A stretch of 21,497 bases of DNA from a virus. Below, piece after piece: positions 2,133 through 21,497 of the stretch. The stretch lies in the IMG/VR virus record IMGVR_UViG_3300047469_000164, positions 1-21,497 of that record; one strand, given 5' to 3'. Both the position numbers and the translations under genes were made by a program. Below the pieces are notes generated by a model that was given only the letters and a program-made list of their open reading frames with translations, had not been told where the DNA came from and did not search any database. Positions within the stretch are counted from its first letter, which is position 1; each line of letters opens with the position of its first letter.

Positions 2133-2155
2133 GGGATACGGCGCGGCCGTAGCAT
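2113..2155 (+). promoter_or_regulatory. TAGGAAAA-type putative rightward promoter, copy 1 (tail operon)
   Basis: TAGGAAAA at 2113-2120 is followed 29 bases later by TAGCAT (2150-2155), which takes the place of the GAGAAT seen in copies 2-4. There is no -35 hexamer at 17-base spacing. A small hairpin (TACGGC-GCG-GCCGTA, 2137-2151) lies between the two. If TAGCAT acts as the -10, transcription would begin about at the ATG of the first tail gene (2162). That gene has no Shine-Dalgarno sequence, so its message might be leaderless. This is the weakest of the four copies. Confidence 0.45.
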
Positions 2156-3898: not shown

Positions 3899-3899
3899 C

Positions 3900-5210
3900 G
3901 TGACGACGGACCTGCTGCCTATCGACGCGCCCGCGCTACAACCGCTCGCGAACAGCGCGGAATATGACGAACTGGAAACGGAACTGAAAGCGGTTTTCAC
4001 GTCCGTTTTCAACGCCATGATCCGCGACCGCGAACGCCAGTTGAATTTCACCGGCATGCCGCACCTCGGCGATGCCGAATTGATGGAGCGCGTGCTCAAG
4101 CTCAACGGCCTCGCGATCATCCGCCGCGACGACACGCGAACCGCGTTTCTGCTGAAGGCCGCCCTTGCGCGCAACCCGCGTCGGGGCATGCTATTTCTGA
4201 AGCAATACCTTCAGGCCACCTGGCCGAATGTGTGGAAGGTCGAGCCGCTTTGGCACCCAATTGCGACGGCCAATGAATACCCGGATCACGTCACGCCGCG
4301 CACGATCATCGACATTGGCACGAACGTGCAGGCGGTCTATGACCCGGACAGCATGGACGGCCTGCCGACGATCTACCGCACCGACTGGCAGGGGGAGCAG
4401 AAGCTCTATCCGGTCGCGCGCACGAACCTGATTCAGAACTCGAATCTGGCGAGTGCGGGCGCGAACTGGACCCTGTCCAATGCCACGGTCACGTCAAACT
4501 CAGTCATCGCACCGGACGGCACGAATACGGGTGCGAAGGTCACGCGCACGGCGGCGGGCAACGACTGGGCCGCGCAGACGGAAACGGCCATTGCAGCGGC
4601 GAGCAAGACATTTACCGGGTCGGTTTATCTGCTCGGCGCAGGCATGCCGGGCAATTACACGCTTCGCCTGCGCGATAGCGCGGACACGCAATACGCCACT
4701 CAGAACATCACGCTAGACGACACCGTCGCCTGGCACCGCGTTTCGATCACGGCAGCACTTCCGGCAACAGCCGTCGGCGGCGCGAAATTCACCGTCGATC
4801 CGACGTCGGACACCGGCGCGGCAGGCGATGCGTTCTATATGTGGGGCGCGCAGCTTGAGGTCGGCGTACTGACAGGGCTGATTCAGACGCCCGTCGGCGC
4901 GACAAAGACGGTCACAGACTACACGGTTGACGCGAACGGCATTGCGACGTTCTCCGATGGCGTGTCACCAGCGACGCCCATCACGCACTTTCGCACGAGC
5001 CGCGTGCGCGTGACGCTGCCTGTCACGACGGACAACGGCCTCGGCCTGCTCGAAGTCGCCAAGGCGTTCCGGTCGGTGCTGGCCGCGCGCCTCATGATCG
5101 AACTTCAACTGTCGACCGTGTTCGAGGGCATCGGCGTAACGGGCGGCCTTGCAATGTCAAACGGTGCATCGGGCGTGATGCCGGTGCTCGCAAACGGCAC
5201 ACTGAGTTAA
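3900..5210 (+). CDS. gpI-like baseplate protein with an inserted jelly-roll/CBM-like segment, 436 aa
   Basis: GTG start directly after the J-like gene. The N-terminal ~145 residues (LPIDAPALQPLANSAEYDEL, ELMERVLKLNGLAIIRRDD, WPNVWKVEPLW) resemble gpI-type proteins, which follow gpJ in many myoviruses. The segment from about residue 173 to 320 starts PVARTNLIQNSNLASAGANW and includes GSVYLLGAGMPGNYTLRLRD and FYMWGAQLEVG. That is the wording of the beta-sandwich carbohydrate-binding-like domain often found in phage fibres and head spikes. After it, VTDYTVDANGIATFSDG leads to a C-terminal alpha/beta stretch (RVRVTLPVTTDNGLGLLEV). I infer that the receptor-type module is inserted in a baseplate protein. 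The start and fusion are clear, but the gpI assignment is moderate. Confidence 0.6.
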   Translation: MTTDLLPIDAPALQPLANSAEYDELETELKAVFTSVFNAMIRDRERQLNFTGMPHLGDAELMERVLKLNGLAIIRRDDTRTAFLLKAALARNPRRGMLFLKQYLQATWPNVWKVEPLWHPIATANEYPDHVTPRTIIDIGTNVQAVYDPDSMDGLPTIYRTDWQGEQKLYPVARTNLIQNSNLASAGANWTLSNATVTSNSVIAPDGTNTGAKVTRTAAGNDWAAQTETAIAAASKTFTGSVYLLGAGMPGNYTLRLRDSADTQYATQNITLDDTVAWHRVSITAALPATAVGGAKFTVDPTSDTGAAGDAFYMWGAQLEVGVLTGLIQTPVGATKTVTDYTVDANGIATFSDGVSPATPITHFRTSRVRVTLPVTTDNGLGLLEVAKAFRSVLAARLMIELQLSTVFEGIGVTGGLAMSNGASGVMPVLANGTLS

Positions 5211-5221
5211 ACGAGGGGAAT

Positions 5222-6091
5222 ATGGGAAGCAAAACCGGAAAGATCACGTACAACGTGCACGAGCGGGGCCGCCAGTTCGTCGGCAAGGACCGCAATTTCA
5301 ACCTCGGCGCGCTCGCCGCGCTCGTGAACAGTAACGCCGTGCAAGAGCGCGTGCGCAACCGCGACCTCACCGGCTTTTACGGGCACTGGATTCGTGCCCG
5401 GTTCGGGCTCAACCCGCCTGAGTCGCTTGTGTTCGACGGTAAGGTAGTCAACATCGAGCCCGCGCTTGTGACGACGTACCTAGCAGCCGACGATGAGGGC
5501 AACATCACGCACGAGGCTGAGTTTCTCGACACGGACGCGGGCTCGATTGCAGAGCGGCTTTTTCACTCGAAGCAAGGCGGGTTCTCGTCGGCGATTGAGG
5601 CCGCGCCGAATATCCGGCCGTCGTTCCCGACGATCTTTGCCGGGTTCGATTACGTGTTCGAGCCGAACTACTCGACCAATCGCGGTTTCATGTTCGACAG
5701 CACGCTCGCCGACGACAGCACGCTGTTCGATGCCGTCATGCAGGAATGGCATATGTCAAACGCCATGATGCGCAACCTGTTCGATTCGATGCAGGCGGAT
5801 CACCTGCTGGCAGTGCAGACGATTGAACGCCTCAAAGAGGAAAACGAGGAATTGCTGTCCATCGCCTCGCGCGCGACGGGTAAAAACGGCGCGGTGCTGC
5901 TCGACAGTACGGGCGGCCACGTCGCGCCGTTGTCGATCAGTTCGCGCGCAACGGCCGATTTCCGCGCGCGTGCCCGCTCGTTCAGCACCGGTGCGCTCGT
6001 GCCGCTCGAAAATCTGCCCGATGACGACAGCACGGTCGCGCCCGCCGAAAACCCGGTAATCGAACATGCGCGCCGCGCGTGGGGAGTATGA
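5222..6091 (+). CDS. prohead-protease-like protein with a C-terminal coiled coil, 289 aa
   Basis: GAGGGGA lies just before the ATG. Residues 50-130 resemble the herpes-assemblin/T4 gp21-type prohead protease layout. A GHW motif (His55) is followed by PALVTTYLAADDEGNITHEA, then AEFLDTDAGSIAERLF (compare the family's ILxTPxGKxxxxLI) and QGGFSSAIEAAP with Ser122/Ser123 where the family has G-I/V-SS. His55 and Ser122/123 are the candidate catalytic residues. Residues 195-215 (TIERLKEENEELLS) form a short coiled coil, and the C-terminus is low complexity, which could be a scaffold part. Its place among tail genes is unusual for a head protease. A tail protein that only resembles the fold remains possible. 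Confidence 0.45.
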   Translation: MGSKTGKITYNVHERGRQFVGKDRNFNLGALAALVNSNAVQERVRNRDLTGFYGHWIRARFGLNPPESLVFDGKVVNIEPALVTTYLAADDEGNITHEAEFLDTDAGSIAERLFHSKQGGFSSAIEAAPNIRPSFPTIFAGFDYVFEPNYSTNRGFMFDSTLADDSTLFDAVMQEWHMSNAMMRNLFDSMQADHLLAVQTIERLKEENEELLSIASRATGKNGAVLLDSTGGHVAPLSISSRATADFRARARSFSTGALVPLENLPDDDSTVAPAENPVIEHARRAWGV

Positions 6092-6915
6092 CGTTGAGCC
6101 TGTTCTCTGCACTCGAACAGGCGTTCGGCCAATACCTCGGCCGCTTTTATAGCGGCCTTGTGGCTGACACGCCGCAAATGAAAGAGTACGTCGCGCGCGG
6201 CCTCTCGAAAAGCATCGTCTATGCGCCCGGCCGCATGGTCGACAAGGTCGAGGACGTGCTCAACGAGTGGCGCAAGAATCAGAACGTGTCCGGGCCGGGC
6301 CTGTCGTCTCTGTTGCCCGTCTGCATCGTCTGCATTGACGAAGATTTCACGCCGTCACTGGTGGACTATGGTGCGTCCATCGGCGGCGCAGTCGACGTCA
6401 TGCTGCCCGGCGACGAACTGAATCGCGCGTACAAGGTGCGCCTGAGCGCGAACGATTACCGCGCGCAGATCGTGTTCATCGCGTCTGAGCGGCACTCGGC
6501 GCACAGCCTCGCGTTGCAGTTCAACCTCTTTACGAACGGCCCGTTCGGGCGGCGCTTCAGCATGGCGCACGAGTTCGCCGGGCAGAGCCTTGATTTCCCC
6601 GTCGTGCTCGAAGATATCAACGTCGGCGCGATTGCGCAGGAAGCGCAGAAGAACCTGCGCGTGAATGTCGCGGATTTCGTGCTGCATGCGACCGTGCCCG
6701 TATTCCAGGCACCGGGCGACGGCGAGCCCAACGACGGCAAGGCGGCACCGGCAGGCTATCCGGTTGTCACGGAAGTCAACGCGGTCAACCTGCGCACCGG
6801 CGTTGTGATTGACGATTCCGTGGATGCCAGCGGCGTGGTAACTGAGGTGCGCTCGTACACACAGCCGACCCTGCGCGTCCCTGTGATCGGTGACGATGAT
6901 GAGGTGCAATCGTGA
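6088..6915 (+). CDS. uncharacterised tail-module protein, possibly sheath/tail-terminator-like, 275 aa
   Basis: The start is ambiguous. ATG 6088 forms an ATGA overlap with the upstream stop, GTG 6079 lies nine bases earlier, and TTG 6094 has the best spacing from GGGGAG. I chose 6088. The protein contains LLPVCIVCIDEDFTPSLVDY, YKVRLSANDYRAQIVFIASE, FSMAHEFAGQSLDFPVVLED and KNLRVNVADFVLHATVPVFQ. This alternation of beta strands with a late conserved DFPVVLEDINV segment recalls tail-terminator or sheath-stabiliser proteins of other myoviruses. I could not verify a family, so this is a weak guess. It sits between the protease-like gene and a 160-aa unknown and overlaps the latter as GTGA. Confidence 0.6.
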   Translation: MTLSLFSALEQAFGQYLGRFYSGLVADTPQMKEYVARGLSKSIVYAPGRMVDKVEDVLNEWRKNQNVSGPGLSSLLPVCIVCIDEDFTPSLVDYGASIGGAVDVMLPGDELNRAYKVRLSANDYRAQIVFIASERHSAHSLALQFNLFTNGPFGRRFSMAHEFAGQSLDFPVVLEDINVGAIAQEAQKNLRVNVADFVLHATVPVFQAPGDGEPNDGKAAPAGYPVVTEVNAVNLRTGVVIDDSVDASGVVTEVRSYTQPTLRVPVIGDDDEVQS

Positions 6916-7394
6916 GCGTCATTACACTTCAGGTTGAAATCAACGGCTACAAAGGCCCGGCCGTCAACCTGCTCGCCGCTTGCGATGCAGGCGAGCCCGG
7001 CGACGCGGAAGCAACCGGCCTTGTCATCGTCTCGCAGGAGCTGCCGCCAGGCTCGCGCGAGCCCGGCGCAATGGTGACGTCAAACGACCCGCGCGCGGCG
7101 GCGCGTGACCTGCTCTTTGACGAAAGCATGATCGCGGCGGCCATCGACCTGTACTTTCGGGCTGAGTCGACGGGCATGCTCGAACTGCTTGCGCCGGTGC
7201 AAAAGCACAACCCTTCCGGCGCGGTGCAGGTGCGCGGTGTCGCGGCAGCGGGCACGCGGTACGAACTCAACCCGGATCTCACCAACGGGCAGGTCGCAGT
7301 GCTCGCGCTCATGTACGCATCGCACCGCTCGCTGTCTGTCGAAGATACGACGGACTTCGCTGACGAAATGGCCGACATGTATTTCAGCATCTAG
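6912..7394 (+). CDS. uncharacterised tail-module protein, 160 aa
   Basis: GTG start overlapping the upstream stop as GTGA. The sequence begins MSVITLQVEINGYKGPAVNL, carries VIVSQELPPGSREPGAMVTS, and ends in an acidic helix (DTTDFADEMADMYFSI). It has no signal peptide or membrane helix and I do not recognise a family. It closes the first tail operon. The next TAGGAAAA box begins two bases after its stop codon, which marks it as the last gene before a new transcription unit. A structural or assembly role is inferred from context only. Confidence 0.65.
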   Translation: MSVITLQVEINGYKGPAVNLLAACDAGEPGDAEATGLVIVSQELPPGSREPGAMVTSNDPRAAARDLLFDESMIAAAIDLYFRAESTGMLELLAPVQKHNPSGAVQVRGVAAAGTRYELNPDLTNGQVAVLALMYASHRSLSVEDTTDFADEMADMYFSI

Positions 7395-7396
7395 CG

Positions 7397-7439
7397 TAGG
7401 AAAACGCGCGCCGCCGCGCGCGTGAGGTGACCTGAGAAT
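7397..7439 (+). promoter_or_regulatory. TAGGAAAA-type putative promoter, copy 2 (tail-fibre operon)
   Basis: TAGGAAAA (7397-7404) is followed after 29 bases by GAGAAT (7434-7439). A CG-rich self-complementary stretch (7405-7422) follows the octamer at once. The box begins two bases after a stop codon and about 60 bases before the GTG of the tail-fibre gene. If GAGAAT is a -10 element the message would begin near 7446. If the octamer itself directs initiation, the leader would include the hairpin at 7426-7463. Confidence 0.55.
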
Positions 7440-7463
7440 CGGAGCATCCATTCTGAGGTCACC
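7426..7463 (+). promoter_or_regulatory. long inverted repeat covering the tail-fibre ribosome binding site
   Basis: GGTGACCTGAGAAT (7426-7439) pairs with ATTCTGAGGTCACC (7450-7463) at 13 of 14 positions, with a single G-G mismatch and a ten-base loop. The 3' arm contains GAGGT, the Shine-Dalgarno sequence of the GTG start at 7465. As RNA it would hide the ribosome binding site. As DNA the AGGTGACCT arm is itself near-palindromic, so it could instead be an operator. No U-run follows, so it is not a terminator. Confidence 0.6.
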
Positions 7464-7464
7464 A

Positions 7465-8910
7465 GTGACAGTTACCCTCAACCCCAAAATCACCAACGCC
7501 GGTCTGGCTCTCATGCCGACCGGGGATGCGACCGGCTTTTCGGTGCAGTTGACGCATATCGCTATCGGCCTTGGACTCTACTCGCTCGGCGGTACGGGCG
7601 ACGCCGACGACACGGCTGCGCGCTCGATGGTCGCGCTCAAGAATGAAATTGCGCGCTATGCGATTTCGAGCGGCACGAACCCCAATGCGACGTCGATCCA
7701 GATCGGCACGACCATCACCGACACGGACCCGAACGGCAAGAGCCCCAACGGAAAATCCATCGGCGAAATCGGCTTCTATGCCGGTAACACGCTTTGGGCC
7801 GTGTGGAGTCGCGCCGACTCGGCGCTGTTCGTGAAGTCGGCGGGCTTCGATATCCCGTTCGCGTACACGCTCGACACGTCGGCATTCCCTCAGAACTCTG
7901 TGACCGTCACGGTCGCAACCGACCCTCAGGGCATGGCCGCGCTGATCCTCCAGCACAAGGCAGAGCCCGACCCGCACCCGCAGTATGCGACGGATGCCGA
8001 CGTTGCCGCGCTGACGGCCGTTGTCGTCACGAAACAGCCGCTGCTCGGCTTTACGCCGGTCCAGCAAGGCGGCGTGACTGGGCAAGGTGCGAACAAGATC
8101 GCAATCGGCCTTGCCAGCGACGGCAGCGGCGCTCTGAAGGTGAGCATCGACAACGTCGACAAGGGCGGCATTGCCCTGCTCGCAAGCCCCGTATTCAGCG
8201 GCGTGCCGCAAGCCCCGACGGCGGCGGCCGGGACGTCCACCAAGCAGCTTGCGACGACTGAGTTTGTCACGGCCGCGATCAGCACGGCACTGGTCGGCCA
8301 GATCGCGTGGGAGCCGCGCACGTCGGCGCGCGCGGGCTATCTGAAGCTCAATGGTGCCCTGCTCAATCGCGCAGACTATCCCGCGCTTTGGGCGTATGCG
8401 CAGTCGAGCGGCGCGCTCGTGACGGAAGCGCAATGGTCGGCCAACAGTTTTGGCTGTTTTTCGTCGGGCGACAACGCAACCACGTTCCGCATTCCTGAGG
8501 TGCGCGGCGAGTCGATCCGGTGTTGGGATGACAGCCGGGGGGTCGACACCTCGCGCGGCATCGGTACGTGGCAGGACGGCCAGAACCTCTCGCATATTCA
8601 TGCCGCGTCGGCCGCCGCCGTCGGCGATCATGCGCATAGCGCATGGACGGACGGTCAAGGCGCGCACGGCCACAACTTTTCGCAACAGGTTCCGCAGAGT
8701 GTCGGCGACACCGACCGGGGTTCCGTGAGCAGCGGCTTCTCCATCGACACCCCTGTTTGGCCGTGGACGGACACTCAAGGCACGCACGGCCACAACGTCG
8801 GCGTGGGCGCTGCAGGCGGGCACTCTCACACCATCACCATCGGGGCGGCAGGCGGCACTGAAGTGCGCGTGCGCTCGGTCGCAATGCTCGCGATGATTCG
8901 CGCTTACTAA
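7465..8910 (+). CDS. tail fibre protein with tail-collar domain, 481 aa
   Basis: GTG start with GAGGT a few bases upstream. Residues 1-170 match the N-terminal tail-attachment region of collar-type fibres (ITNAGLALMPTGDATG, IGEIGFYAGNTLWAVWSR, and the ATDPQGMAALILQHKAEPDP hinge). Residues 175-270 are a shaft with AGTSTKQLATTEFVTAAIS. From residue 278 (GQIAWEPRTSARAGYLKLNG ... LNRADYPALWAYAQ ... FRIPEVRGE) lies a phage tail-collar domain. The C-terminus is rich in H-x-H pairs (HIHAA, GDHAHS, AHGHN, THGHN, GHSHTI), like the metal-binding tips of trimeric fibres such as T4 gp37. It acts in receptor binding. The assembly chaperone follows directly. Confidence 0.85.
   Translation: MTVTLNPKITNAGLALMPTGDATGFSVQLTHIAIGLGLYSLGGTGDADDTAARSMVALKNEIARYAISSGTNPNATSIQIGTTITDTDPNGKSPNGKSIGEIGFYAGNTLWAVWSRADSALFVKSAGFDIPFAYTLDTSAFPQNSVTVTVATDPQGMAALILQHKAEPDPHPQYATDADVAALTAVVVTKQPLLGFTPVQQGGVTGQGANKIAIGLASDGSGALKVSIDNVDKGGIALLASPVFSGVPQAPTAAAGTSTKQLATTEFVTAAISTALVGQIAWEPRTSARAGYLKLNGALLNRADYPALWAYAQSSGALVTEAQWSANSFGCFSSGDNATTFRIPEVRGESIRCWDDSRGVDTSRGIGTWQDGQNLSHIHAASAAAVGDHAHSAWTDGQGAHGHNFSQQVPQSVGDTDRGSVSSGFSIDTPVWPWTDTQGTHGHNVGVGAAGGHSHTITIGAAGGTEVRVRSVAMLAMIRAY
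8641..8796 (+). repeat. internal duplication in the fibre tip (two 36-base copies)
   Basis: Bases 8641-8676 and 8761-8796 are 31/36 identical and exactly 120 bases apart, encoding WTDGQGAHGHN and WTDTQGTHGHN. The duplication keeps frame and extends the His-x-His tip of the fibre. Confidence 0.7.
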
Positions 8911-8924
8911 ACGAGGTTATCCCC

Positions 8925-9584
8925 ATGCTTATCCATCAATACAACAATGCGACGGGCGAATACATCAGCAGCCGCCTGGCCGACCCGGACCCGCTCAATC
9001 AGGACCGCTGGCTTTTGCCCGCATTCACGACGGACGTTGCACTGCCCGACCGGCAGCGCAACGAATGGCCGTTCTTCATCGGCGGCGCATGGGTCATCAA
9101 GCCGGACTTTCGCGGCCAGATGCTGTATCGCACCGACACCGGCGAGGCCGCTGAAATCCTCATGCCGGGCATTAGCATCGAAGACGCCGGGCTCACAGCG
9201 ACGCCGCGCCCGTCCGATCAGTACATTTGGGAAAACGGCGCATGGGTGATCGACCCGGCCGCCGTCGCTGCCAAGGCGAAGGCCGATGCGATGGCGGAAT
9301 TTGACACGCTCATGAGCGAGGCGCGCACGGCGAACGCGGGCAAAAACGATGCTTACGCCGCCGACCTGCTTACGCCGCTCGAAGTCGGCATGTTCAAGGC
9401 GTGGGCCGCCTATCAGTTGGCGCTCGCCAACGTCGTGAACGCGGCCGACTTCCCCGCCAACCTGCAATGGCCCGCCAAGCCGGATGCAGATGCCGTCGAG
9501 GCGCAGGTGTTGGCTGAACTGGCGGCGAAGGCAGCGCAGCAGACACAGGCCGCTGGCGCAACTGATACCGCACAAGCCTCGTAA
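8925..9584 (+). CDS. tail fibre assembly chaperone, 219 aa
   Basis: The protein starts MLIHQYNNATGEYISSRLAD and has NEWPFFIGGAWVIKPDFRGQ, MLYRTDTGEAAEI and YIWENGAWVID. These are the repeated GxWxxxP/D-type strands typical of the Caudo_TAP/gp38-like tail-fibre assembly family. A helical region follows (AEFDTLMSEARTANAG, VGMFKAWAAYQLALANV), then WPAKPDADAVEAQ and an Ala/Gln-rich tail. Members help trimerise the fibre encoded just upstream, which is the arrangement here. The stop-to-start junction upstream uses ACGAGG as ribosome binding site, the same TAAACGAGG wording found before the gene at 5222. Confidence 0.8.
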   Translation: MLIHQYNNATGEYISSRLADPDPLNQDRWLLPAFTTDVALPDRQRNEWPFFIGGAWVIKPDFRGQMLYRTDTGEAAEILMPGISIEDAGLTATPRPSDQYIWENGAWVIDPAAVAAKAKADAMAEFDTLMSEARTANAGKNDAYAADLLTPLEVGMFKAWAAYQLALANVVNAADFPANLQWPAKPDADAVEAQVLAELAAKAAQQTQAAGATDTAQAS

Positions 9585-9904
9585 TGGCAATCACGCCCGT
9601 ATCGACGGCCGCATTCGTGCGGGCGGTTCGCCGGTTCGCCGTGCAAACGCCGGACTGGTCGACCGCGATCCGCTACCAGACGCTGCCCGATGAGCGTTTC
9701 GATATCACGCTGGCGGCGCGCCGCGTCTACGGTGACCGTGCGCAATACATGGTGATCTTCGCGGCGGCCGGGCTCGATACGCTCGAACAGGAACTGCCCG
9801 AACAGGCGCTTGTGCTGCCGAACTACTCGCAGTTGCAGATCATCAAGCGCCAGACGGGCTATCTGACTGACAATGAAGAACGAGCATATTCAGCACTTGA
9901 TTAA
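9584..9904 (+). CDS. small LysM/gpX-like tail protein, 106 aa
   Basis: The ATG overlaps the upstream TAA by one base (TAATG). The core TLPDERFDITLAARRVYGDR, YMVIFAAAGLDTLEQELPE and ALVLPNYSQLQIIK follows the pattern of small tail proteins of the gpX/LysM type. That pattern is a turn with Asp, an aromatic 'YG' step, an I-x-x-A-N/A-G helix and a final VxLP strand. Such proteins bind the tail hub or peptidoglycan. The match is by eye and moderate. Its last 32 bases overlap the following gene in another frame. Confidence 0.5.
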   Translation: MAITPVSTAAFVRAVRRFAVQTPDWSTAIRYQTLPDERFDITLAARRVYGDRAQYMVIFAAAGLDTLEQELPEQALVLPNYSQLQIIKRQTGYLTDNEERAYSALD

Positions 9905-10913
9905 CCGGGCAACCGCGCGCCTGCCGTCGGCGCGCGGTGAAGCCCAACGCAACGCGCAGGCTGACCTCGAACAGCGGCAAGCCGCGTCGACCATTCTCAA
10001 CCCGAATGAGGTGTCGGGCGAGTATGACGGCGGGCGGCTGCTGCAAACGTCGCTGCGCGGCGCGCTGCGCCCGATCACGCAGAAAGACCTGCGCGCGTTC
10101 CAGTCGAATGTCACGAACCTCAAAAAGAAGTTCGTCGGCGGCATCACCGCGCAAGGCGTGATCGACCTCGCGCTGGACGCGGACAAGCAGCGCGCGAACA
10201 AGGAAATCCGCGTCGCGGTGCCCGTCTCGATACGCGGCCCGTTGTTTCACTTCATCACGAACGCCGGGCCTGATTCGGACGTCACGCGCCACCATGTGCA
10301 CGTCGAGTTTATGGACTTCGATGCAGCCGTGGGCGCGTCGCCGAACGATCAGAAAAAGATCGGCAAGACGGTTGCGAATGGACGGCTGAAGTTCGATTGC
10401 GATTGCGGCCGTCACCGCTACTGGTTCCGCTACATCGCGACCATCGGCAAGTACAACTATGGGCGCGCGGAAACGGGTTACCCGAAAATCCGCAACCCGA
10501 AACTGCATGGCGTCGCGTGCAAGCACGTATTGCGCACGATGCACGTCATTCTGAAAGACGCGAACACGCAGCTAAAAATCGCGCAGCAGGTCATCAAGGC
10601 CCGCGCCGCGCTCGATGGCACAAAGCTCAAGACTGAGCGCACCAAGGCCGCTGACGCGCGCACACACGCGGCAGAACAGCACGCCAAGCGCAAGTCGAGC
10701 ACCAACCTCAAGACGACGGCACAAAAGCAGGCCGCGAACGCCGCGCGCCGCGCGCGCGAGTCGATGAAGAAAGCCGCCGTCGAAAAGGCCAAGGTGGACG
10801 CGAAAAAGCCGTCGGCCGCCGCAAAGAAGATCGAGCGTAGCGCGCGCAACCTGCTCGCGCTCGGCGCGATCACGCAGGAACAGTTCAACGAAATCATGAA
10901 GAACGCGAAATGA
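9873..10913 (+). CDS. SWIM-type zinc-binding phage protein, 346 aa
   Basis: Residues 170-220 read FDCDCGRHRYWFRYIATIG through HGVACKHVLRTMHVI. Cys176-x-Cys178 and Cys216-x-His218 form the CxC...CxH signature of a SWIM zinc finger, a fold used for DNA or protein contact. The N-terminal part contains GGRLLQTSLRGALRPITQKD and HHVHVEFMDFDAAVG. The C-terminal 110 residues are highly basic and helical (many Lys/Ala/Arg) with a final EQFNEIMKNAK helix. The start ATG 9873 has no clear Shine-Dalgarno sequence and lies 32 bases inside the previous gene, so it may be translationally coupled. Its role in the tail region is unknown; a nucleic-acid-contacting virion protein would fit the basic tail. Confidence 0.7.
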   Translation: MKNEHIQHLINRATARLPSARGEAQRNAQADLEQRQAASTILNPNEVSGEYDGGRLLQTSLRGALRPITQKDLRAFQSNVTNLKKKFVGGITAQGVIDLALDADKQRANKEIRVAVPVSIRGPLFHFITNAGPDSDVTRHHVHVEFMDFDAAVGASPNDQKKIGKTVANGRLKFDCDCGRHRYWFRYIATIGKYNYGRAETGYPKIRNPKLHGVACKHVLRTMHVILKDANTQLKIAQQVIKARAALDGTKLKTERTKAADARTHAAEQHAKRKSSTNLKTTAQKQAANAARRARESMKKAAVEKAKVDAKKPSAAAKKIERSARNLLALGAITQEQFNEIMKNAK

Positions 10914-11413
10914 TTAATTCGATCCCGGTTGCGATCAATCACGCGGCGCGCACGGTCACGCTCAAGCATCCCAATTCGCTCGACTGTGCGCTCTATCGCA
11001 AGGTCATTTCGCGCGTCGCCGATGACGGCACGACTGAGGGCGGTCTGCCGACCATTGGCGGGCTCGGCGTGCTCACGCCTGAGGACGAACCGGAGTTCGA
11101 GTATCAGCCGCTTGGCGAGGGCAAGCTGCTGATTACAAGCCGCTTTGAGGGGACGCTCGACCTCACCGACCGGGGCGACGCGCTCGCGCCCGATACCCAG
11201 TTGCTCGAAGCGCTCGTTGAGCCCGTCGACGTACCGGGTTTTCAGGTGAAAAAGTACGACCTCATCGCCGCGATGCCAGGCGGGGGTGTGGTCATCGCGT
11301 ATGAAGTGGTGGGAATGATAAGCGCGGTCGGCATCGCGCCCTACGCGAAAAAGTGGATTCTCGCGCCGCGCGATGAACTGTCGGACACTACGCCTTGGGA
11401 TAGCGGTCAGTAA
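10910..11413 (+). CDS. uncharacterised tail-module protein, 167 aa
   Basis: ATGA overlap with the upstream SWIM gene. It begins MINSIPVAINHAARTVTLKH and contains LYRKVISRVADDG, GGLGVLTPEDEPEFEYQPLG and KKYDLIAAMPGGGVVIAYEV. The pattern is beta-rich with an acidic centre. No family was recognised. It is the last gene of the rightward tail block, and its 3' end overlaps the end of the leftward gene at 11388 by 26 bases. A structural role is inferred from position. Confidence 0.65.
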   Translation: MINSIPVAINHAARTVTLKHPNSLDCALYRKVISRVADDGTTEGGLPTIGGLGVLTPEDEPEFEYQPLGEGKLLITSRFEGTLDLTDRGDALAPDTQLLEALVEPVDVPGFQVKKYDLIAAMPGGGVVIAYEVVGMISAVGIAPYAKKWILAPRDELSDTTPWDSGQ

Positions 11414-13871: not shown

Positions 13872-13900
13872 TTGTATGTTGTCACGTTTGAACATGCAAC
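13872..13900 (-). promoter_or_regulatory. leftward promoter B, head of the leftward block
   Basis: Minus strand TTGCAT (13900-13895), 17 bases, TACAAT (13877-13872). It shares an exact 18-base core with promoter A plus TTGCA at the same distance. Its -35 lies ten bases from the divergent TAGGAAAA box at 13910, so leftward and rightward initiation may interfere here. Confidence 0.7.
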
Positions 13901-13909
13901 GGATTCCGT

Positions 13910-13950
13910 AGGAAAAGTGCCGCCGCTCGCGCGCGCGCGCGACCCGAGAA
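13910..13950 (+). promoter_or_regulatory. TAGGAAAA-type putative promoter, copy 3 (polyvalent operon)
   Basis: TAGGAAAA (13910-13917) is followed after 27 bases, including a CG-alternating run, by GAGAAT (13945-13950). The ATG of the first polyvalent gene is at 13958. If GAGAAT is the -10 the mRNA would start at about the ATG and be leaderless. No strong Shine-Dalgarno sequence precedes this ATG. Confidence 0.55.
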
Positions 13951-13957
13951 TGGCTCA

Positions 13958-16615
13958 ATGGACACCTATTCGCACATCGAGCAAGCCGCGCACGACAGCG
14001 CATTCGGGCACAACAGCCGCCCGCTGCCGTCCGTCGCGCAGCAGGACGCCGGGAACTACAAAAAGGGCCGCGCCGCCGTCGCGGGCATCCCCGTTGTGAT
14101 CGAGAACCCTCGCGGCTCGCTGCGCGAGTGGCGTGCCGCCGACGGCACGAGCGGCGCGAACCTCATGAAGTTCCATTACGGCTACGTCGAAGGCGTCACC
14201 GGCGCGGACGGCGATGAACTGGATTGCTACGTCGGCCCGTACCCGGAATCCGCAGCGGCCTACGTCGTCAATCAGAACGTGCGTGGCGCGTTCGATGAGC
14301 ACAAGGTGATGCTCGGCTTTCCCGATCAGCGCACGGCTGAAGCGGGCTATCTGAGCAACTTCAATGCGGGCTGGCCGGGCCTGCAAAGCTGTGTGCCTTG
14401 CTCGATTCCGCAATTACGTTGGTGGATGACCAACGGCGATATGTCCATCCCGCTTACGCAAGATCAACTCCCTCAAGAGGAAAGGAACCCCATGCAAAAG
14501 GTGCTTTGGGATAGCGCGAATATGCCCGTCGGCAAAACCCTCGCGCAGGTGCTGTACGACATTCGCGCGAACGATGGCGCGGACGGGCTCATTTTCGACC
14601 CGGTGACCATCGCCGATATCATGGGCGATGCTGACGGCGTGGTGACGCTCGATGCGCTCGTGATCCCGTTCGCGAAGCTGCCGCAGCGCATGGAAATCCT
14701 GCGCAAGGTGATGGACCGCAAGGGCGGCGATATCAAGGTGCTGTCGGTGCAGGTCACGGAACCTTTCACGCAGCGCGGTACGACCAACGTCGCATCCGTG
14801 TTCGAACTGAGCGACGGCCAGACGGTCACGATCTTTTTTCACAATCCGGACGTCACGCCGAAAAAGATCGTCGCGACGGATGAGGTCGTTTCGTGGAAAT
14901 GGATGCTCAACAAAAAGGACATCACGATTGTCGTCGCGCCGGAAAAAGGCCGCGACCTCAACATTCAGAATGTCGCCGCGCGCGTGATGACGCTCGCCGC
15001 GCGCAACAGTTCGCGCTTTGCGCAGACCAACGCCAAGCGGGCCGAACGCATGGAGAACATCGCGGGCCTGCAAAAGCAGTATGACGATGGCGTGGTGACG
15101 CTGCAAAACCTCAATAAGGAAATCGGCGAACTGGAAATCACCGTCGAGCAAAAGCAGCGCGTGACGCCCGTTGTCCCCGATCCGACGCCAGAGCCGCAGC
15201 CGGTCATCGAGCCGACACCGGAACCGACGCCGGAACCCACGCCCGCTGCGCCGGTCGACGTCGATTCGTTGCCTGCTGTCGTCTCGGCCGACCTACCCTT
15301 TGATGACGTCGGCGATACGGCCCGCTGGCTCGTGATGAACGCGCCGCGCCCGCTTGTGGGCGATTCCGTACTGGACAACGGCCCGATGCTCGAAGGCCGC
15401 TTCTATGCCCTGATCGACCTTTCGGACGGCAGCGCAGGCAATCTGATCGCTGAGAACCGCCAGAACGGCGCGGTCGCAGTGTTCGCCGCCGACAGCGCGA
15501 CGCAAACCGCGATGGCACTGAATCTCGCCGACCCGGAATACCTGCCCTCCTACCTCGCGATGGACGCGCAGGAACTGAGCGAAAGCATCGGCGGCCTGTT
15601 GTCGCAACTGAAGGAAGGTAAGACCTACGGCGAATTGAAGGCGCTCGCCGCAAAGGGAATGCCCGTTGCACCGGTTGTCGAGCCGGAACCCGTTGCGCAA
15701 GGTGAGCCGGTGCTCGAAGCGGCCGGTTTCAAGAATGTGCATGCGAACGTATGGGTGCGCGCGATCACGCTCGATGATGGCAAAAAGCTGCAGGTCAATA
15801 TCAACGTGGCGGACAACGGCTATAACGCCGTCAAGTCGGTGACGTTTCCCGGCATCACTGGCGCGAGCCAGGCAATCGGCGTGTTCGAGACGGCAGAGGC
15901 GGCCGCTGCTGCCGCGCAGGCTGAGTTCGACGCATTCACGGCAGAAGCCGCCAAGCCGACCTATCCGGGCGCTGACGTGCTCGAAGCAAACGGATTCGTG
16001 CACAGCGCTGACAACGTGTGGACGCGGTCGGAAAGCAACGCTGACGGCGTGAAACTCGCCCTGATCGCGTTCGTTCAGACTGACGGCACCTATGCGCTGC
16101 GCAAGGCGATCATCGGCCTGACGGAAACCGGCGCAGTTGAGGACGTCGGCACGTATGCCAAGCCGGGCGAACTAGTCGACGCCGCAGTTGACGAAATGAC
16201 GGCGTTCCTTAGCGAGCCGCAGCCGGAACCGACACCTGAGCCCTCGCCGGACCCACTGCCGAATCCCGGCCCTACGCCGCTGCCGCTGCCTGAGCCGCTG
16301 CCTGATCCCACGCCGACGGCCGATGAACAGGCTGCCGCAGAGGAAGCTGCCCGCATGGCCGCCGAACAGGCGGCAGCAGAGCAGGCCGCCGCCGAAGCTG
16401 CCGCAGCGCAGGCCGCCGCGCGCACCGCTGACGCGACGTTTGTCCAGTCGGCCGCCGACGGAAACGAGAACTTCTACGATAAGGCCGTCACCGACCGGCT
16501 TGCCGCGCTCGCGACGCAATACGCGGGCGATGATGAGTTCGCCGCGCTGATCGCATCCGCCAAGACGGCCGCAAAGTACTTTTTCATCGCTGAGTTCAAA
16601 AAGAAGGTGGGCTAA
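13958..16615 (+). CDS. polyvalent protein: pyrophosphatase-like domain fused to a DarA-like region and repeat modules, 885 aa
   Basis: Residues 33-155 form an inorganic-pyrophosphatase-like domain of the phage polyvalent type. NYKKGRAAVAGIPVVIENP and KFHYGYVEGVTGADGDELDC include DGDELDC (84-90), which fits the PPase active-site pattern D-x-D-[PE]-[LIVMF]-D. Residues 179-400 (KVLWDSANMPVGKTLAQVLY, SVFELSDGQTVTIFFHNPDV, VVSWKWMLNKKDITIVVAPE) match proteins annotated as DarA-related (defence against restriction), as I remember them. A Pro/Glu/Thr linker (401-435) follows. Two AGF/NVW repeats (585-660, 674-752), a second Pro-rich linker, an Ala-rich helix and a C-terminal tail (824-885) complete it. 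P1 Dar proteins are virion proteins injected with DNA; a similar role is inferred here. An internal start at 14492 is likely. Confidence 0.75.
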   Translation: MDTYSHIEQAAHDSAFGHNSRPLPSVAQQDAGNYKKGRAAVAGIPVVIENPRGSLREWRAADGTSGANLMKFHYGYVEGVTGADGDELDCYVGPYPESAAAYVVNQNVRGAFDEHKVMLGFPDQRTAEAGYLSNFNAGWPGLQSCVPCSIPQLRWWMTNGDMSIPLTQDQLPQEERNPMQKVLWDSANMPVGKTLAQVLYDIRANDGADGLIFDPVTIADIMGDADGVVTLDALVIPFAKLPQRMEILRKVMDRKGGDIKVLSVQVTEPFTQRGTTNVASVFELSDGQTVTIFFHNPDVTPKKIVATDEVVSWKWMLNKKDITIVVAPEKGRDLNIQNVAARVMTLAARNSSRFAQTNAKRAERMENIAGLQKQYDDGVVTLQNLNKEIGELEITVEQKQRVTPVVPDPTPEPQPVIEPTPEPTPEPTPAAPVDVDSLPAVVSADLPFDDVGDTARWLVMNAPRPLVGDSVLDNGPMLEGRFYALIDLSDGSAGNLIAENRQNGAVAVFAADSATQTAMALNLADPEYLPSYLAMDAQELSESIGGLLSQLKEGKTYGELKALAAKGMPVAPVVEPEPVAQGEPVLEAAGFKNVHANVWVRAITLDDGKKLQVNINVADNGYNAVKSVTFPGITGASQAIGVFETAEAAAAAAQAEFDAFTAEAAKPTYPGADVLEANGFVHSADNVWTRSESNADGVKLALIAFVQTDGTYALRKAIIGLTETGAVEDVGTYAKPGELVDAAVDEMTAFLSEPQPEPTPEPSPDPLPNPGPTPLPLPEPLPDPTPTADEQAAAEEAARMAAEQAAAEQAAAEAAAAQAAARTADATFVQSAADGNENFYDKAVTDRLAALATQYAGDDEFAALIASAKTAAKYFFIAEFKKKVG
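14477..14494 (+). promoter_or_regulatory. strong internal ribosome binding site and ATG inside the polyvalent gene
   Basis: GAGGAAAGGA (14477-14486) lies five bases before an in-frame ATG at 14492 (Met179). This is a better ribosome binding site than the one at the annotated start. Translation from here would give a 707-aa protein beginning MQKVLWDSANMPV, exactly at the border between the pyrophosphatase-like and DarA-like regions. Confidence 0.6.
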
Positions 16616-18525
16616 TGAGTGCCGATGGTGAGATTTTCACGGCCATCGGCGAAGGCGCGGCGCTGCTCGCCGCGCTCGATGAGAACGCGCCGGATTTTTT
16701 TGACCGTCTGAATCGCCTGCGCGAAATCCTCGCCATGCTCGGCGGCCCGGCACCGCTCGCGGTGTCGCTGTCGGATCGCGAGGGCGCGCGCGCGTCGCTT
16801 GCCCGCTACATGCAGACCGGGCTCGCCGACCTGCCGCCCGTGCTGGCCGCACTCGAAGCAGAAACGGTAGCGGAACTGGCGGCAATGGCGGGCCTGCCCT
16901 CCATCGCGCAAGAGGCGAAGAACTGGGCAGCGAGCACGCAAAGTGAGTTTCAGGCGCATACCGACACGACCAAGCTCGCCGCGTTCGATCACTTTTCGGC
17001 GCGCGGCATCGGCCGCAGCATGAATACGGCGCGCCTGCGCGACAACGTACGCGACGCCGACAAGCTGCTGCAGACGAGCGTGCGCGACGATCCCGAATAC
17101 ACCGCCTCTCGCGAGCGCTATAACGAAGTCACCCGCGCGCGCATTGCCCGCATCCGCGAACTCGACATGGTCATCGCCGAATACAAGCGGCAATACGATG
17201 ACCTGCTCAATTCGCGCAATGTGACGGAAGTCGACCGTAACGACGCGTTCGTGCGGCTCGACCGCGCGCGCCGCGACCGCGAGGACTATTACAACGAGTC
17301 GGACGCGGAACAGACGCGCGCCTATGAGGAAATGATGGCCGCCGCGAAGCGTTTCGACGCGGACAAGGCGGCGGCGCACCTGGCTCTCTTTGAGGACAAC
17401 GGCAAGCAGATTCTGTCGAAGCTGGCTGAAGCGTCTCCCGTCACCGAGGAAGCCGCGCGCGCATGGGCGGCCGAACAGGTCATTGATGACAACGCCAAGA
17501 CGAAGCTCAAGCGGCTCGGCTACAAGCCCGATGACGTCGTTCGCGACATGGCAGAGTATTACCGCCTGAGCGGCGGCAAGGCGTCCACCATCCGCATCAG
17601 CGCGGGCGGCAAGCGCGCCAACGCGGTAGGCGTCGACACGCGCGTAGGCGAAAAGGTCATCAACCTCGGCACGTATTTCAACAAGACGGTGCTCTTTCAC
17701 GAACTGGCGCACCATCTGGAGAATGATCCGATTGCCAAGGCCGCGTCAAACGGCTTTCTGCTCAAGCGGCGCGACGATGAGAAGGTCTACAGCCTGCGCG
17801 ACCTCACCGGCATCAAGGCATACGGCCGCGATGAGGTGGCGTGGAAAGACGGCTTTACCGACCCGTATGTTGGTAAGGTCTATCGTGGCGGCATCACTGA
17901 GGTTTGGTCTATGGGTGTCCAATACCTAGCAAACCCCAAAGACGCCGCGTGGTTCGCCGGTAAAGACCCGGAAATGTTCAACCTCATCACCGGCTACCTG
18001 AGCGCGGCAGCAACGCCCGCGATGCGCGCAAAGCTGAACCTGCACGCTGACGCGATTGACGACAAGCAGGATCAGGCCGCTGCGCTCGAAAGCCAGTATG
18101 AGAAGGCGCTCGCCTACCTCGCGTCGAAAGCACCTGTGACGGACGATGACTGGTATAGCACGTTCGACAAAAACACCGTGCAAGGCGAGCAGGTCGAATA
18201 CATGCTCAGGCGCGATAAATCGAAGAACCCGCAGTATGTGGGGGCGAACGGTGAATACAAGGTATTTTCGGGTACGTTCCGCAACAAGAACACGAAGCGC
18301 AACGCGAAAGGCTATCTGATCCTCACCATCCGGGGCGATGACTACCCCGAATATGAGTACGTGCATGGCGACATGCAACTGGTGCGGGCCGTTATCGCCG
18401 CGTCGCGCCTGAATGGCATTACCCTGTCGAGCACCTTTTATCGTTACTTCTACGATGGCCTTGGCTCGGCAGCAGACCGCCAGCAAAAGCTGATCGACCT
18501 CGTAGGCCCGGAGAATGTGCAATGA
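16615..18525 (+). CDS. polyvalent metallopeptidase protein, 636 aa
   Basis: TAATG overlap with the upstream gene. Residues 1-47 are the GEGAALL module shared with the next gene (IFTAIGEGAALLAALDEN). Residues 150-250 are long charged helices, probably coiled coil (SRERYNEVTRARIARIRELD, DRARRDREDYYNESDAEQTR). Residues 355-440 hold a zinc-peptidase signature: VLFHELAHHLEN with His362, Glu363 and His366, and GITEVWSMGVQYL with Glu429 as a likely third ligand, as in phage polyvalent metallopeptidases. The C-terminal 120 residues (NPQYVGANGEYKVFSGTFRN, GYLILTIRGDDYPEYEYVHG) are a separate beta-rich domain of unknown role. The enzyme may process virion proteins or host targets, which is inferred. 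It ends ATGA with the next gene. Confidence 0.75.
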   Translation: MSADGEIFTAIGEGAALLAALDENAPDFFDRLNRLREILAMLGGPAPLAVSLSDREGARASLARYMQTGLADLPPVLAALEAETVAELAAMAGLPSIAQEAKNWAASTQSEFQAHTDTTKLAAFDHFSARGIGRSMNTARLRDNVRDADKLLQTSVRDDPEYTASRERYNEVTRARIARIRELDMVIAEYKRQYDDLLNSRNVTEVDRNDAFVRLDRARRDREDYYNESDAEQTRAYEEMMAAAKRFDADKAAAHLALFEDNGKQILSKLAEASPVTEEAARAWAAEQVIDDNAKTKLKRLGYKPDDVVRDMAEYYRLSGGKASTIRISAGGKRANAVGVDTRVGEKVINLGTYFNKTVLFHELAHHLENDPIAKAASNGFLLKRRDDEKVYSLRDLTGIKAYGRDEVAWKDGFTDPYVGKVYRGGITEVWSMGVQYLANPKDAAWFAGKDPEMFNLITGYLSAAATPAMRAKLNLHADAIDDKQDQAAALESQYEKALAYLASKAPVTDDDWYSTFDKNTVQGEQVEYMLRRDKSKNPQYVGANGEYKVFSGTFRNKNTKRNAKGYLILTIRGDDYPEYEYVHGDMQLVRAVIAASRLNGITLSSTFYRYFYDGLGSAADRQQKLIDLVGPENVQ

Positions 18526-19871
18526 CCATTACGACCGTTTATCGGGTGCTCACGCCGCACGGCGGCTTTGAGGCCCAATGGGATGAGGACGAGGAAATCC
18601 CCGTCGCCTACGTGGGCGACGAAAGCGCCATCGCGTTTTTTAAGTCGTTTCTTGACCTCAATCCCATTTCCGCGCGCGGCGGCTCGCTCGTGCAGTTCGC
18701 CGCCCTCCAGCCCGGCGACATGGCCTTTTGCCAGAATGCGCAGTACGGCATTAAGGTTATCGAGCCGCTTGACGATTTGATTGACGACGACACCGGCGAC
18801 ACGCAAATGCCCACTATCTACGACTCCGCGAGCGACGCGGACACCTTTACCCTCATCGGCGAGGGCGCAGCCCTGCTCAACGGGCTCGACGAAAACTCCG
18901 ACACGTTCTTTGTCGACCTCGGCCGCCTGCGCGAAATCGTGATCGCGCTCGGCGCTGCCGCGCCGGTGCCTGAGCCCATGCCCTACGACGTCACGCAGGA
19001 TCAGCCCGCTCTGGCTGCGGCCGGGTATGCCAAGGTGAAGGACAACCCGACAGGCAACGAATGGTTGCGCGAGGTCGCGCTCGCCGACGATATGGGCTCG
19101 CTGCTGTACCGCGTGTTCGTTGAATGGGGCTCCCCGGTGCAATACCGCGTCACGGTCACGGCAGCGCTCACCGGCGTGCGCAAGCCGGGCTCCGACTCGC
19201 TTGGCTGGTATGCGACGCCTGAGGAAGCCGTAGCCGCCGCGCAAAAGTCGTGCGACGCGTTCCCGTTCCCGAAGCTGGTCGTACCCGTCGCAGACCCGGA
19301 GCCGACCGGTACGGAAAACGAGCCGGTCATCGAGCCGCCCGCCCCTGATACCTTGTCGACCTCCCCTCTCTCCGACGAAACCATGCTGAAGTACATCGCC
19401 ATTGCCGCCGACTCCATCACCGCGCTGCGCCGCATCGACGTCTATCGCGTGCTCTACTCGCTCGCGGCCGACAACGCCAACGGCGTGACGCGCGCCGCGC
19501 TCGCGACGTGGATCGCGCAGAAGCGCCCGGACCTCGCCGCCGAAGTAACGGCCGTGATGGCCGAAGAATGGCCCGACGACGGCTGGACGCCGCCCGCTGC
19601 TGATCCCGTTGTGGCGGTGACGGACCCGCTGCCGGAGGGCGGTACGGTCGTGCCGCCCATCGAGCCCGCGCCGAACGGCGAGCGCGCCGACGACCTCGCG
19701 TTTCTCCTGTCGGTGAGCGCGCAAAGCATCGACATGATGGCCGACGGCATCGCCGAACGCATCGAGGCGACGCTCGGCAAATATCCGGGCGATGCCGATA
19801 TCGAGCAGGCCGTGCGCGAATCTGTCGCCTCGTACACGGACTACATGCAAAAGCTCATCGGCGGGCAGTAA
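18522..19871 (+). CDS. modular companion of the anti-restriction block, 449 aa
   Basis: ATGA overlap with the metallopeptidase gene. Residues 1-95 form a compact N-terminal domain (VYRVLTPHGGFEAQWDEDEE, AFFKSFLDLNPISARGGSLV, GDMAFCQNAQYGIKV) that I do not recognise. Residues 103-150 repeat the GEGAALL module of the upstream gene. Residues 163-247 (ALAAAGYAKVKDNPTGNEWL ... EEAVAAAQKSCDAF) are a third copy of the AGF/NVW module. Residues 285-350 include IAADSITALRRIDVYRVLYS and a Trp-rich PDDGWTPP. Residues 389-449 resemble the C-terminal tail of the 885-aa protein. No catalytic motif is visible. It looks like an assembly of adaptor or packaging modules. A terminator follows. Confidence 0.65.
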   Translation: MTITTVYRVLTPHGGFEAQWDEDEEIPVAYVGDESAIAFFKSFLDLNPISARGGSLVQFAALQPGDMAFCQNAQYGIKVIEPLDDLIDDDTGDTQMPTIYDSASDADTFTLIGEGAALLNGLDENSDTFFVDLGRLREIVIALGAAAPVPEPMPYDVTQDQPALAAAGYAKVKDNPTGNEWLREVALADDMGSLLYRVFVEWGSPVQYRVTVTAALTGVRKPGSDSLGWYATPEEAVAAAQKSCDAFPFPKLVVPVADPEPTGTENEPVIEPPAPDTLSTSPLSDETMLKYIAIAADSITALRRIDVYRVLYSLAADNANGVTRAALATWIAQKRPDLAAEVTAVMAEEWPDDGWTPPAADPVVAVTDPLPEGGTVVPPIEPAPNGERADDLAFLLSVSAQSIDMMADGIAERIEATLGKYPGDADIEQAVRESVASYTDYMQKLIGGQ

Positions 19872-19883
19872 CACCGGCACCGG

Positions 19884-19908
19884 AAAGCCCCTGAAACAGG
19901 GGCTTTTT
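19884..19908 (+). terminator. Rho-independent terminator after the polyvalent operon
   Basis: AAAGCCCCTG, loop AAA, CAGGGGCTTT, ending in a run of five T (19904-19908). The ten-base stem is perfect. It separates the 449-aa gene from the DarB-like gene, whose TAGGAAAA box begins three bases later. Confidence 0.9.
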
Positions 19909-19910
19909 CA

Positions 19911-19953
19911 TAGGAAAAGCCGCGCCAGTAAAGGCAGAAAGGGCCGCGAGAAT
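19911..19953 (+). promoter_or_regulatory. TAGGAAAA-type putative promoter, copy 4 (DarB-like gene)
   Basis: TAGGAAAA (19911-19918) follows directly on the terminator. GAGAAT (19948-19953) comes 29 bases later, the same spacing as in copies 1 and 2. The DarB-like ATG is at 19986, leaving a leader of about 26 bases if GAGAAT is the -10. Because a strong terminator lies immediately upstream, this gene needs its own promoter, which makes this the best-supported copy. Confidence 0.65.
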
Positions 19954-19985
19954 TTAACGCGCCCAACTACCTTTATTGGCGACCA

Positions 19986-21497
19986 ATGACCTCTCTGCAA
20001 ATTGACCTCGAACGCCTGAAGCTGGCGAAAGAGGCGCGCGACCTCATCACTGAGCGCGCAACCCTGTCAGCCGATACCGGCGACGTAATCCGGGCACTGA
20101 AGATCGGCAAGCGCCTGCGCGATATCGCGCTCGCGCTCGGCGTGCGCCCGCCAGTCGCGGTCGAGCCGCAGCCGGAACCCGTGCCGGTGCGCACGGAACC
20201 GACGGGCGAGTTTTACCCTGAGGAAGGCCGCAAGACGCTCGCGCAACGCCAGCGCGACAACAACGCCGCTATCGCCCTCATCCGCGAGATTCAGGCCGAA
20301 GGCCGCGCCGTCACCGACGAAGACCGCACTGTGCTCGCGAAGTATTCGGGCAATGGCGGCGGACTCACCGGCGCGGACGGCCTCACCGGCTCGCCGCACG
20401 AGTATTACACCCCGAAGCCCGTTGCTGCCGCCATGTGGGGCCTGCTCGGCGAATTGGGATTCCAGGGCGGCTCTGTGCTCGACCCGTCGGCAGGCACGGG
20501 CGTATTCACCGCGACGCGCCCGGCATCGGCCGTGATGACGCAGATCGAACTCGACGCAACGAGCGGCGCAATCAATGGCGCGATCAACGACGGCCCGACT
20601 GTCAGCACGACGGTTTCGCCGTTCGAGGCTGTCGCGGCGGCCACGCCCGATGAGATTTACGACGCGATCATCACCAACGTCCCGTTTGGCGACAACGCCA
20701 TGCGCGGCGATGCGAAGCTGGCCGACAAGCGTTTCCAGAAGGCGAACCTGCAAGAGTATTTCATCCTGCGCTCGCTTCAGAAGCTGCGCCAGAACGGGCT
20801 CGCCGCTTTCATCGTGCCGCCGTCGATTGTCAGCGGCAAGGGTGCGAAGGCTCAGAAGCTGCGCCTGCAAGCGTCTTTGATGGCTGAGTTCGTGGGTGCG
20901 TACCGCCTGCCGAACAAGATTTTCAGCGAGTCGGCCGCCGCCGACACGATCACCGACGTTATCGTTTTCCGCAAGTTCGCGCGCGACGCGGCGACGAAGA
21001 TCGGCGAACTCGAAACGCAGAGCCCGGACACGCTGCGCACGGCCAATGTGCTGTGGGATGAGTTTCTGGAAGGCCGCTATTTCACCGGCACAGGCAAAAA
21101 GTATGTGCTCGGCGAGGTCGGCACGACCAACGGCAAGTATGGCGAGGTCGAAGCCGTCATTTCCGACGACTCGATCAGCAACATCGCAAAGATGATCCGC
21201 CGTTTCCCCGATTCGCATATCGACTGGGAACTGCTGAACACGACGGAAACCGCGCCCATCGTCTACAAAGACGGCGACGTGATCCATAAGGACGGGCAGA
21301 CGCTGGAATACCGCGACGGCCAATGGACTGCGCTCGATTCGTCGGTTGCCGATGACCGCGCAATGCTCGACGTCGGCACGAAGATCAGTACGGCATTCGC
21401 GGCCGTGACGGCGGGCGTGACGCTCGCAGACGCGCAGGGCTATGCGCGCTATGCCAACGCCAAGGGCAGCTATTCCGACGTGCCTGCATGGCTCACG
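19986..21497 (+). CDS. darB: DarB-like anti-restriction N6-adenine methylase, partial (first 504 aa)
   Basis: An open frame from ATG 19986 runs to the right edge without a stop. Residues 1-60 are helical, then a short Pro/Glu linker. Residues 95-150 contain VLAKYSGNGGGLTGADGLTG and SPHEYYTPKPVAAAMWGLL, followed by methylase motif I in VLDPSAGTGVFTATRP (Asp166-Gly172) and motif IV as NVPFG (231-235), the variant of NPPY/F seen in the DarB family. EYFILRSLQKLRQNGLAAFI and GAYRLPNKIFSESAAADTIT continue the match. DarB-like proteins protect incoming phage DNA from type I restriction and usually carry a helicase region after the methylase, which would lie outside this window. The start has no strong Shine-Dalgarno sequence. 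Confidence 0.85.
   Translation, partial: MTSLQIDLERLKLAKEARDLITERATLSADTGDVIRALKIGKRLRDIALALGVRPPVAVEPQPEPVPVRTEPTGEFYPEEGRKTLAQRQRDNNAAIALIREIQAEGRAVTDEDRTVLAKYSGNGGGLTGADGLTGSPHEYYTPKPVAAAMWGLLGELGFQGGSVLDPSAGTGVFTATRPASAVMTQIELDATSGAINGAINDGPTVSTTVSPFEAVAAATPDEIYDAIITNVPFGDNAMRGDAKLADKRFQKANLQEYFILRSLQKLRQNGLAAFIVPPSIVSGKGAKAQKLRLQASLMAEFVGAYRLPNKIFSESAAADTITDVIVFRKFARDAATKIGELETQSPDTLRTANVLWDEFLEGRYFTGTGKKYVLGEVGTTNGKYGEVEAVISDDSISNIAKMIRRFPDSHIDWELLNTTETAPIVYKDGDVIHKDGQTLEYRDGQWTALDSSVADDRAMLDVGTKISTAFAAVTAGVTLADAQGYARYANAKGSYSDVPAWLT

Follow-up and report, generated by a model that had tools for sequence, protein, structure and literature searches.

The virion genes and the P1-Dar-type genes of this virus probably form one late regulon transcribed from an activator-dependent promoter, with the Dar-type proteins packed into the particle and ejected with the DNA against type I restriction. 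The pattern of promoter sites makes a common late regulon of virion and anti-restriction genes a well supported reading; we infer the late timing, the activator and the anti-restriction effect, and, by analogy with P1, the packaging and injection of the Dar-type proteins. Since the common promoter lies ahead of capsid, tail and Dar-type genes, synthesis of the counter-defence proteins is probably late, and the new particles probably take them up.

The window, meaning the whole stretch of DNA that was analysed, is a viral fragment of 21,497 bases from IMG/VR (Table 1). Its proteins match a group of viral contigs of approximately 87–98 kb; among annotated phages, Xanthomonas phage Rb1 (PQ569993) was the nearest found. 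One of the relatives, G001, is contig NZ_QBUY01000024.1 of Paraburkholderia sp. C35, a separate contig of 93,160 bp, and its genes for ParA-like and XRE repressor-like proteins and for a replication initiator make it resemble a phage-plasmid, like P1. P1 DarA, DarB, DdrB, Hdf, Ulx, Pro, Prt and gp23 all have matches in the relatives of the window. The window is best explained as a piece of a temperate myophage (phage-plasmid) related to P1, with hosts resembling Paraburkholderia. In the element of Paraburkholderia sp. C35 (G001; L035–L039), in-frame stop codons interrupt darB (after ~599 codons) and the portal gene; both frames are open in relatives, and the stops reflect either decay or sequencing error.

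Table 1. Promoters, genes and other features of the window, in order of position.
Feature	Position	Strand	Details
Promoter 1	2113..2155	+	TAGGAAAA 2113-2120 and -10-like TAGCAT 2150-2155; same layout in relatives
Baseplate/assembly operon	2162..7394	+	After promoter 1
Baseplate protein	2456-3898	+	phrog_1369; P1 BplA-like in relatives
Counterpart of relatives' P1 Pro (prohead protease) homologues	5222-6091	+	Within baseplate operon
Promoter 2	7397..7439	+	TAGGAAAA 7397-7404 and GAGAAT 7434-7439; ahead of tail-fibre gene 7465
Inverted repeat	7430..7459	+	CCTGAGAAT...ATTCTGAGG; overlaps -10 of promoter 2
Tail-fibre operon	7465..11413	+	Tail fibre/collar, fibre assembly, baseplate wedge subunit, further tail genes
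Promoter 3	13909..13951	+	TAGGAAAA 13909-13916 and GAGAAT 13946-13951; ahead of DarA-like gene 13958
DarA-like protein	13958..16615	+	InPase aa 27-157, DarA_N aa 230-351, Pro-rich linkers, repeats
P1 DdrB-like HExxH metallopeptidase	16615..18525	+	HELAHHLE; N-terminal LREI module
Companion protein	18522..19871	+	~95-aa N-terminal part, LREI module aa ~100-148, C-terminal module aa 388-449
Intrinsic terminator	19884..19906	+	dG -18.9 kcal/mol; closes DarA-like operon, directly before promoter 4
Promoter 4	19911..19953	+	TAGGAAAA 19911-19918 and GAGAAT 19948-19953; ahead of DarB-like gene
DarB-like N6-methylase (5' part)	19986..21497	+	Frame continues past window end

A two-part promoter in the window and its relatives

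Four exact copies of TAGGAAAA occur in the window, all intergenic and all on the plus strand, against a chance expectation of 0.13 (dinucleotide shuffles); at least four copies were reached in 0/100 shuffles. The genes that follow are the first of the baseplate operon, a tail fibre, the InPase/DarA_N gene and the DarB-like gene. Each box start is followed 37 nt downstream by a hexamer, TAGCAT at the first site and GAGAAT at the other three, and an ordinary sigma70-type promoter match was found at none of the four. The sequence-only reading had claimed that one box precedes the tail operons and the anti-restriction block, and that it stands at both parts of the latter. The exact copies confirm the first claim, and the second holds as well, because the intrinsic terminator lies between the DarA-like operon and the DarB unit, both of which have a box of their own. 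A longer repeat was rejected as the box, the general repeat search having returned coding repeats only, and a version of TAGGAAAA with one mismatch was dropped because chance matches inflated its counts. A literature search for TAGGAAAA in phages gave no relevant report among the matches listed.

Sites collected from relatives, which align without gaps, reveal TAGGAAAA as half of a two-part signal, TAGGAAAA-N29-GANAAT. GANAAT lies exactly 37 nt from the box start in 34 of the 82 distinct TAGGAAAA sites, with at most one site at any other offset, and a looser -10 pattern is present at offset 37 in 50 of the 82. Some copies lack the second element or adjoin a start codon. The fuller promoter consensus is TAGGAAAACGC-N26-GANAAT. 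The hexamer has A at position 2 and T at position 6, as a -10 should, these two positions being also part of the filter that picked the 56 matrix sites. With GANAAT as the -10, the box would occupy about -49 to -42. No -35 is present; 29 nt separate the conserved upstream element from the -10.

The signal is strongly oriented. Counts of TAGGAAAA on the two strands are 10/0, 8/0, 15/0 and 10/1 in G001, G002, G004 and G005, respectively, compared to 0–2 for a reversed-pattern control. A weight matrix applied by leaving one genome out, so that the genome under test was excluded from training, yielded 52 sites in the window and four genomes of ~93–98 kb, a few of them weak or inside ORFs, and 0 on the opposite strand; it yielded none in the box-less relative G008 or the examined part of Rb1. 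Scanning 2.9 million IMG/VR contigs with the DNA pattern alone, which reduces bias in the choice of sites, returned 25 stretches, some of which are source genomes of the pattern but most of which are not. Among 27 classified sites (in 24 stretches), 24 are followed, 49–109 nt downstream, by a capsid, tail-tube, tail-fibre or InPase-DarA gene. When the spacing was changed by -1 or +1, the scan gave 0 stretches and 1 stretch, respectively, vs. 25.

This dependence on spacing bears on whether TAGGAAAA is instead an RNA or translation element, such as a Shine-Dalgarno sequence or leader motif. The box does contain AGGA, and it overlaps a stop codon or ribosome-binding position at two G001 loci. 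However, its distance to the start codon varies from 49 to >800 nt, while that to GANAAT is fixed at 37, and together with the spacing controls this leaves a translation element highly improbable. The two G001 loci (reverse-complement 24873 and 83531) have TAGGAAAA 11–19 nt before a start codon, where its apparent role is that of a stop codon and/or a ribosome-binding site and not that of a promoter.

Inverted repeats with arms of at least 7 nt occur around or just after the -10 in 16 of the 56 promoters, vs. ~2 in shuffled sequence, and their arms differ by site; an upstream control stretch also has 6, so part of this signal may be composition.

Genes behind the promoter

All matrix sites lie on the late-gene strand. 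The loci that they precede encode capsid, tail tube, portal, baseplate and fibre proteins, DarA-like and DarB-like proteins, and terminase. In G001, strong sites on the virion side lie ahead of the major capsid protein (a homologue of P1 gp23, E 3e-24), the tail-tube operon, a collagen-like fibre, the baseplate operon and the tail fibre, and on the anti-restriction side ahead of the InPase-DarA gene and darB; the portal gene is preceded by a weaker promoter variant.

In the window, the ATG of the DarA-like gene and that of the first gene of the baseplate operon each come 6 nt after the -10 of their promoter, and a distance of 6–7 nt for these two genes recurs in every examined relative with the site (12 distinct sequences). 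Taking the hexamer as the -10 puts the transcription start at or beside these ATGs and predicts leaderless late mRNAs for the DarA-like and first baseplate genes.

The collagen-like fibre operon has a conserved leader after its late promoter (G001 reverse-complement 39690–39900), found also at L010 3198, L011 2551 and L042 276 and in G002, G003, G005 and G006. Its outer stem, GCGCGAA...TTCGCGC, is invariant, and its inner stem appears to covary between phages (TCCGC/GCGGA, TCCAC/GTGGA and TCGGGG/CCCCGA). An Rfam search of this leader gave no match above threshold.

Early-type genes have a different promoter, TTG(C/A)..-N17-TACAAT-like, with AACGTGACAACATAC lying across the spacer like a repressor operator. 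It occurs in the window at 13479–13488 and 13880–13888 (minus strand), and in G001 at minus-strand genes and one plus-strand gene.

The anti-restriction block

The genes that the sequence-only reading had called in this block were identified correctly: an InPase domain (PF18823, E 1.3e-42) and a DarA_N domain (PF18788, E 9e-41) in the DarA-like protein, a metallopeptidase with an invariant HELAHHLE motif, a companion, and an N6-methyltransferase of DarB type. The same reading had also proposed a regulon shared with the tail genes. A common promoter, to which relatives add capsid, portal, tail tube and fibre, bears this out, and the block is homologous to the P1 Dar proteins found in virions; the promoter itself is not the P1 late promoter. 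Its description of the block as a candidate complete injected counter-defence set needs correcting, since by the P1 standard the set in the window is incomplete: Hdf-like and Ulx-like genes are not in this fragment. In G001 the former (phrog_1620, E 6e-40) is within the box-driven tail-tube operon, and the latter (phrog_1629, E 5e-29) comes after darB.

The DGDELDC motif in the InPase domain presumably fits the PPase signature. For the DarA part of the protein there is a match to the P1 DarA cryo-EM chain (PDB 9ukm, E 1.6e-16), and for the InPase part one to the C-terminus of a phage portal protein (PDB 9b41, E 8.4e-32). Start-to-stop overlaps run throughout the three-gene operon, as TAATG between the DarA-like gene and the metallopeptidase and as ATGA between the metallopeptidase and the companion. 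P1 DdrB matches the metallopeptidase orthologues of G004 (E 2e-13) and Rb1 (E 7.5e-10). In relatives the operon comprises 1, 2 or 3 genes, with the domains fused differently. The C-terminal module of the companion is common to the DarA/DdrB-like proteins of relatives, and this 62-residue module ends the last protein of the operon in relatives where it was found. The model of the companion is of low confidence overall (pLDDT 52). Met 96 of the companion (codon at 18807), just before the LREI module, is invariant in three companions of ~40% identity and is a possible internal start.

Full-length DarB-like relatives have ~2,280 aa and join the N6-methylase to an SNF2-type helicase. Motif IV of the DarB-like protein is NVPF, as in P1 DarB. 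Its N-terminus carries a DdrA-like helical module (aa ~5–58) with a weak PHROGs match to DdrA (E 0.022), and the metallopeptidase N-terminus and the companion have in common a helical module ending in LREI..LG. Profile comparison of these two modules (probability 77) is suggestive of a relationship, not conclusive. The first 30 residues of P1 DarB are enough to bring a reporter into the head (PMC9024508), which makes the LREI/DarB-type N-termini candidate capsid-targeting signals; by this analogy they are possibly a packaging module.

In P1, all six Dar proteins are contained in the virion (PMC9024508), and DarA-Hdf pairs line the capsid, DarA and Hdf acting in head morphogenesis (PMC12810830). 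The DarA-like protein and the companion might thus be mainly head-morphogenesis proteins whose co-regulation reflects assembly and not counter-defence, a reading with which the portal match of the InPase-like domain also agrees. Against it, the DarB-like methylase-helicase and the DdrB-like peptidase, which have no known assembly role, are encoded alongside, and P1 combines both roles; we therefore regard assembly as the main function as unlikely.

Under the counter-defence reading that we prefer, a putative phage late activator would bind TAGGAAAA(CGC) and recruit host RNA polymerase to a -10-only GANAAT promoter late in infection, such that the DarA-like, DdrB-like metallopeptidase, companion and DarB-like proteins would be made alongside the structural proteins. 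These Dar-type proteins would then be packed into the head, the DarA-like protein probably being processed by the Pro homologue of the common regulon, and would leave it together with the DNA, countering type I restriction in the way known from P1. The Pro prohead protease of P1 cleaves DarA.

A proposed late activator and comparison with known systems

Because the two-part promoter lacks a -35, dependence on an activator is expected. An Lpa homologue was not found by phmmer in the predicted ORFs of G001, G002, G004, G005, G008 or the Rb1 part (best E 0.75). A conserved XRE-type HTH gene lies directly upstream of the packaging genes (G001 reverse-complement 21747–22454; L038:10707–11414), where P1 has lpa-pacAB. 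Its product occurs in box-bearing genomes but, in more divergent form, also in the box-less G008, G009, G010 and Rb1, and its AlphaFold model is poor (pLDDT 51); we keep it as a late activator only as a lead.

Common promoters need not mean late expression if host RNA polymerase and a host regulator use them at any time. That no phage activator was found agrees with such use, as does the resemblance of the -10-like hexamer to the sigma70 type. However, the sites are nearly confined to virion and Dar units on one strand, the minus-strand early-type genes use the other promoter described above, and the expected activator dependence also argues against it. On balance we consider host-driven, untimed expression improbable, and a phage-encoded late activator remains our preferred reading.

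With this motif, late, virion-bound genes can be marked from sequence alone in a phage-plasmid group that is largely uncultured. Candidates for packaged counter-defence proteins can thereby be listed for each genome, and the search for a new late activator becomes directly testable.

In P1, the late promoters LPdar, LPpro, LPsit, LP23, LPs, LPpac and LPlyz are activated by Lpa. As here, they are several and dispersed, lack a -35, and each combine one extra box with a -10; their targets are capsid, tail-tube, tail-fibre and portal genes and darA, just as the promoters described here precede virion operons and the DarA-like gene. The box itself differs. That of P1 is a 9-bp inverted repeat centred at about -22, which starts 13 nt before the -10 in 4 of 5 late promoters compared (18 nt in LPhot), whereas TAGGAAAA starts 37 nt before it at 4/4 window sites and is absent from the P1 stretches examined. 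LPdar already places darA under late control, whereas P1 darB is annotated only with a predicted sigma70 promoter, unlike the DarB-like gene here with its TAGGAAAA box; late control of darB need therefore not be universal. Since box, spacing and activator differ, the system appears to work like that of P1 without being a member of it. We think it somewhat probable that this P1-related phage-plasmid clade replaced, or never had, Lpa and the -22 box and uses TAGGAAAA (about -49 to -42) plus GANAAT with a new activator, the DarA-like and first baseplate mRNAs being leaderless. Dar and capsid genes would then have stayed co-regulated although the late promoter changed completely, an argument for late timing and packaging being essential to Dar function.

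The Dar systems themselves are alike in DarA_N, the DdrB-like metallopeptidase and the DarB methylase-helicase, with Hdf and Ulx homologues elsewhere in relatives. Unlike in P1, the DarA-like protein here has an InPase domain, a DdrA-like helical module is apparently fused to DarB, with a related one on the metallopeptidase and the companion, and gene boundaries vary between relatives (1 to 3 genes).

Xanthomonas phage Rb1 has a DarA-peptidase-DarB cluster of identical gene order, with 51% identity in the N-terminal part of DarB. TAGGAAAA is absent from the 41 kb of Rb1 examined and from G008, and counting of 8-mers brought up no recognisable cognate box in either. Rb1 also has an unannotated ORF of 154–158 aa (L002 17068–17541) between its DarA-like and peptidase genes, where P1 has ddrA; this ORF is weakly similar to the DarB N-terminal module.

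Polyvalent proteins are multidomain phage proteins with DarA, peptidase and methylase-helicase domains, for which packaging and injection have been predicted (Iyer et al., 2017, PMC5512222). There, packaging was deduced from gene context, to which the shared late-type promoter adds further evidence here.
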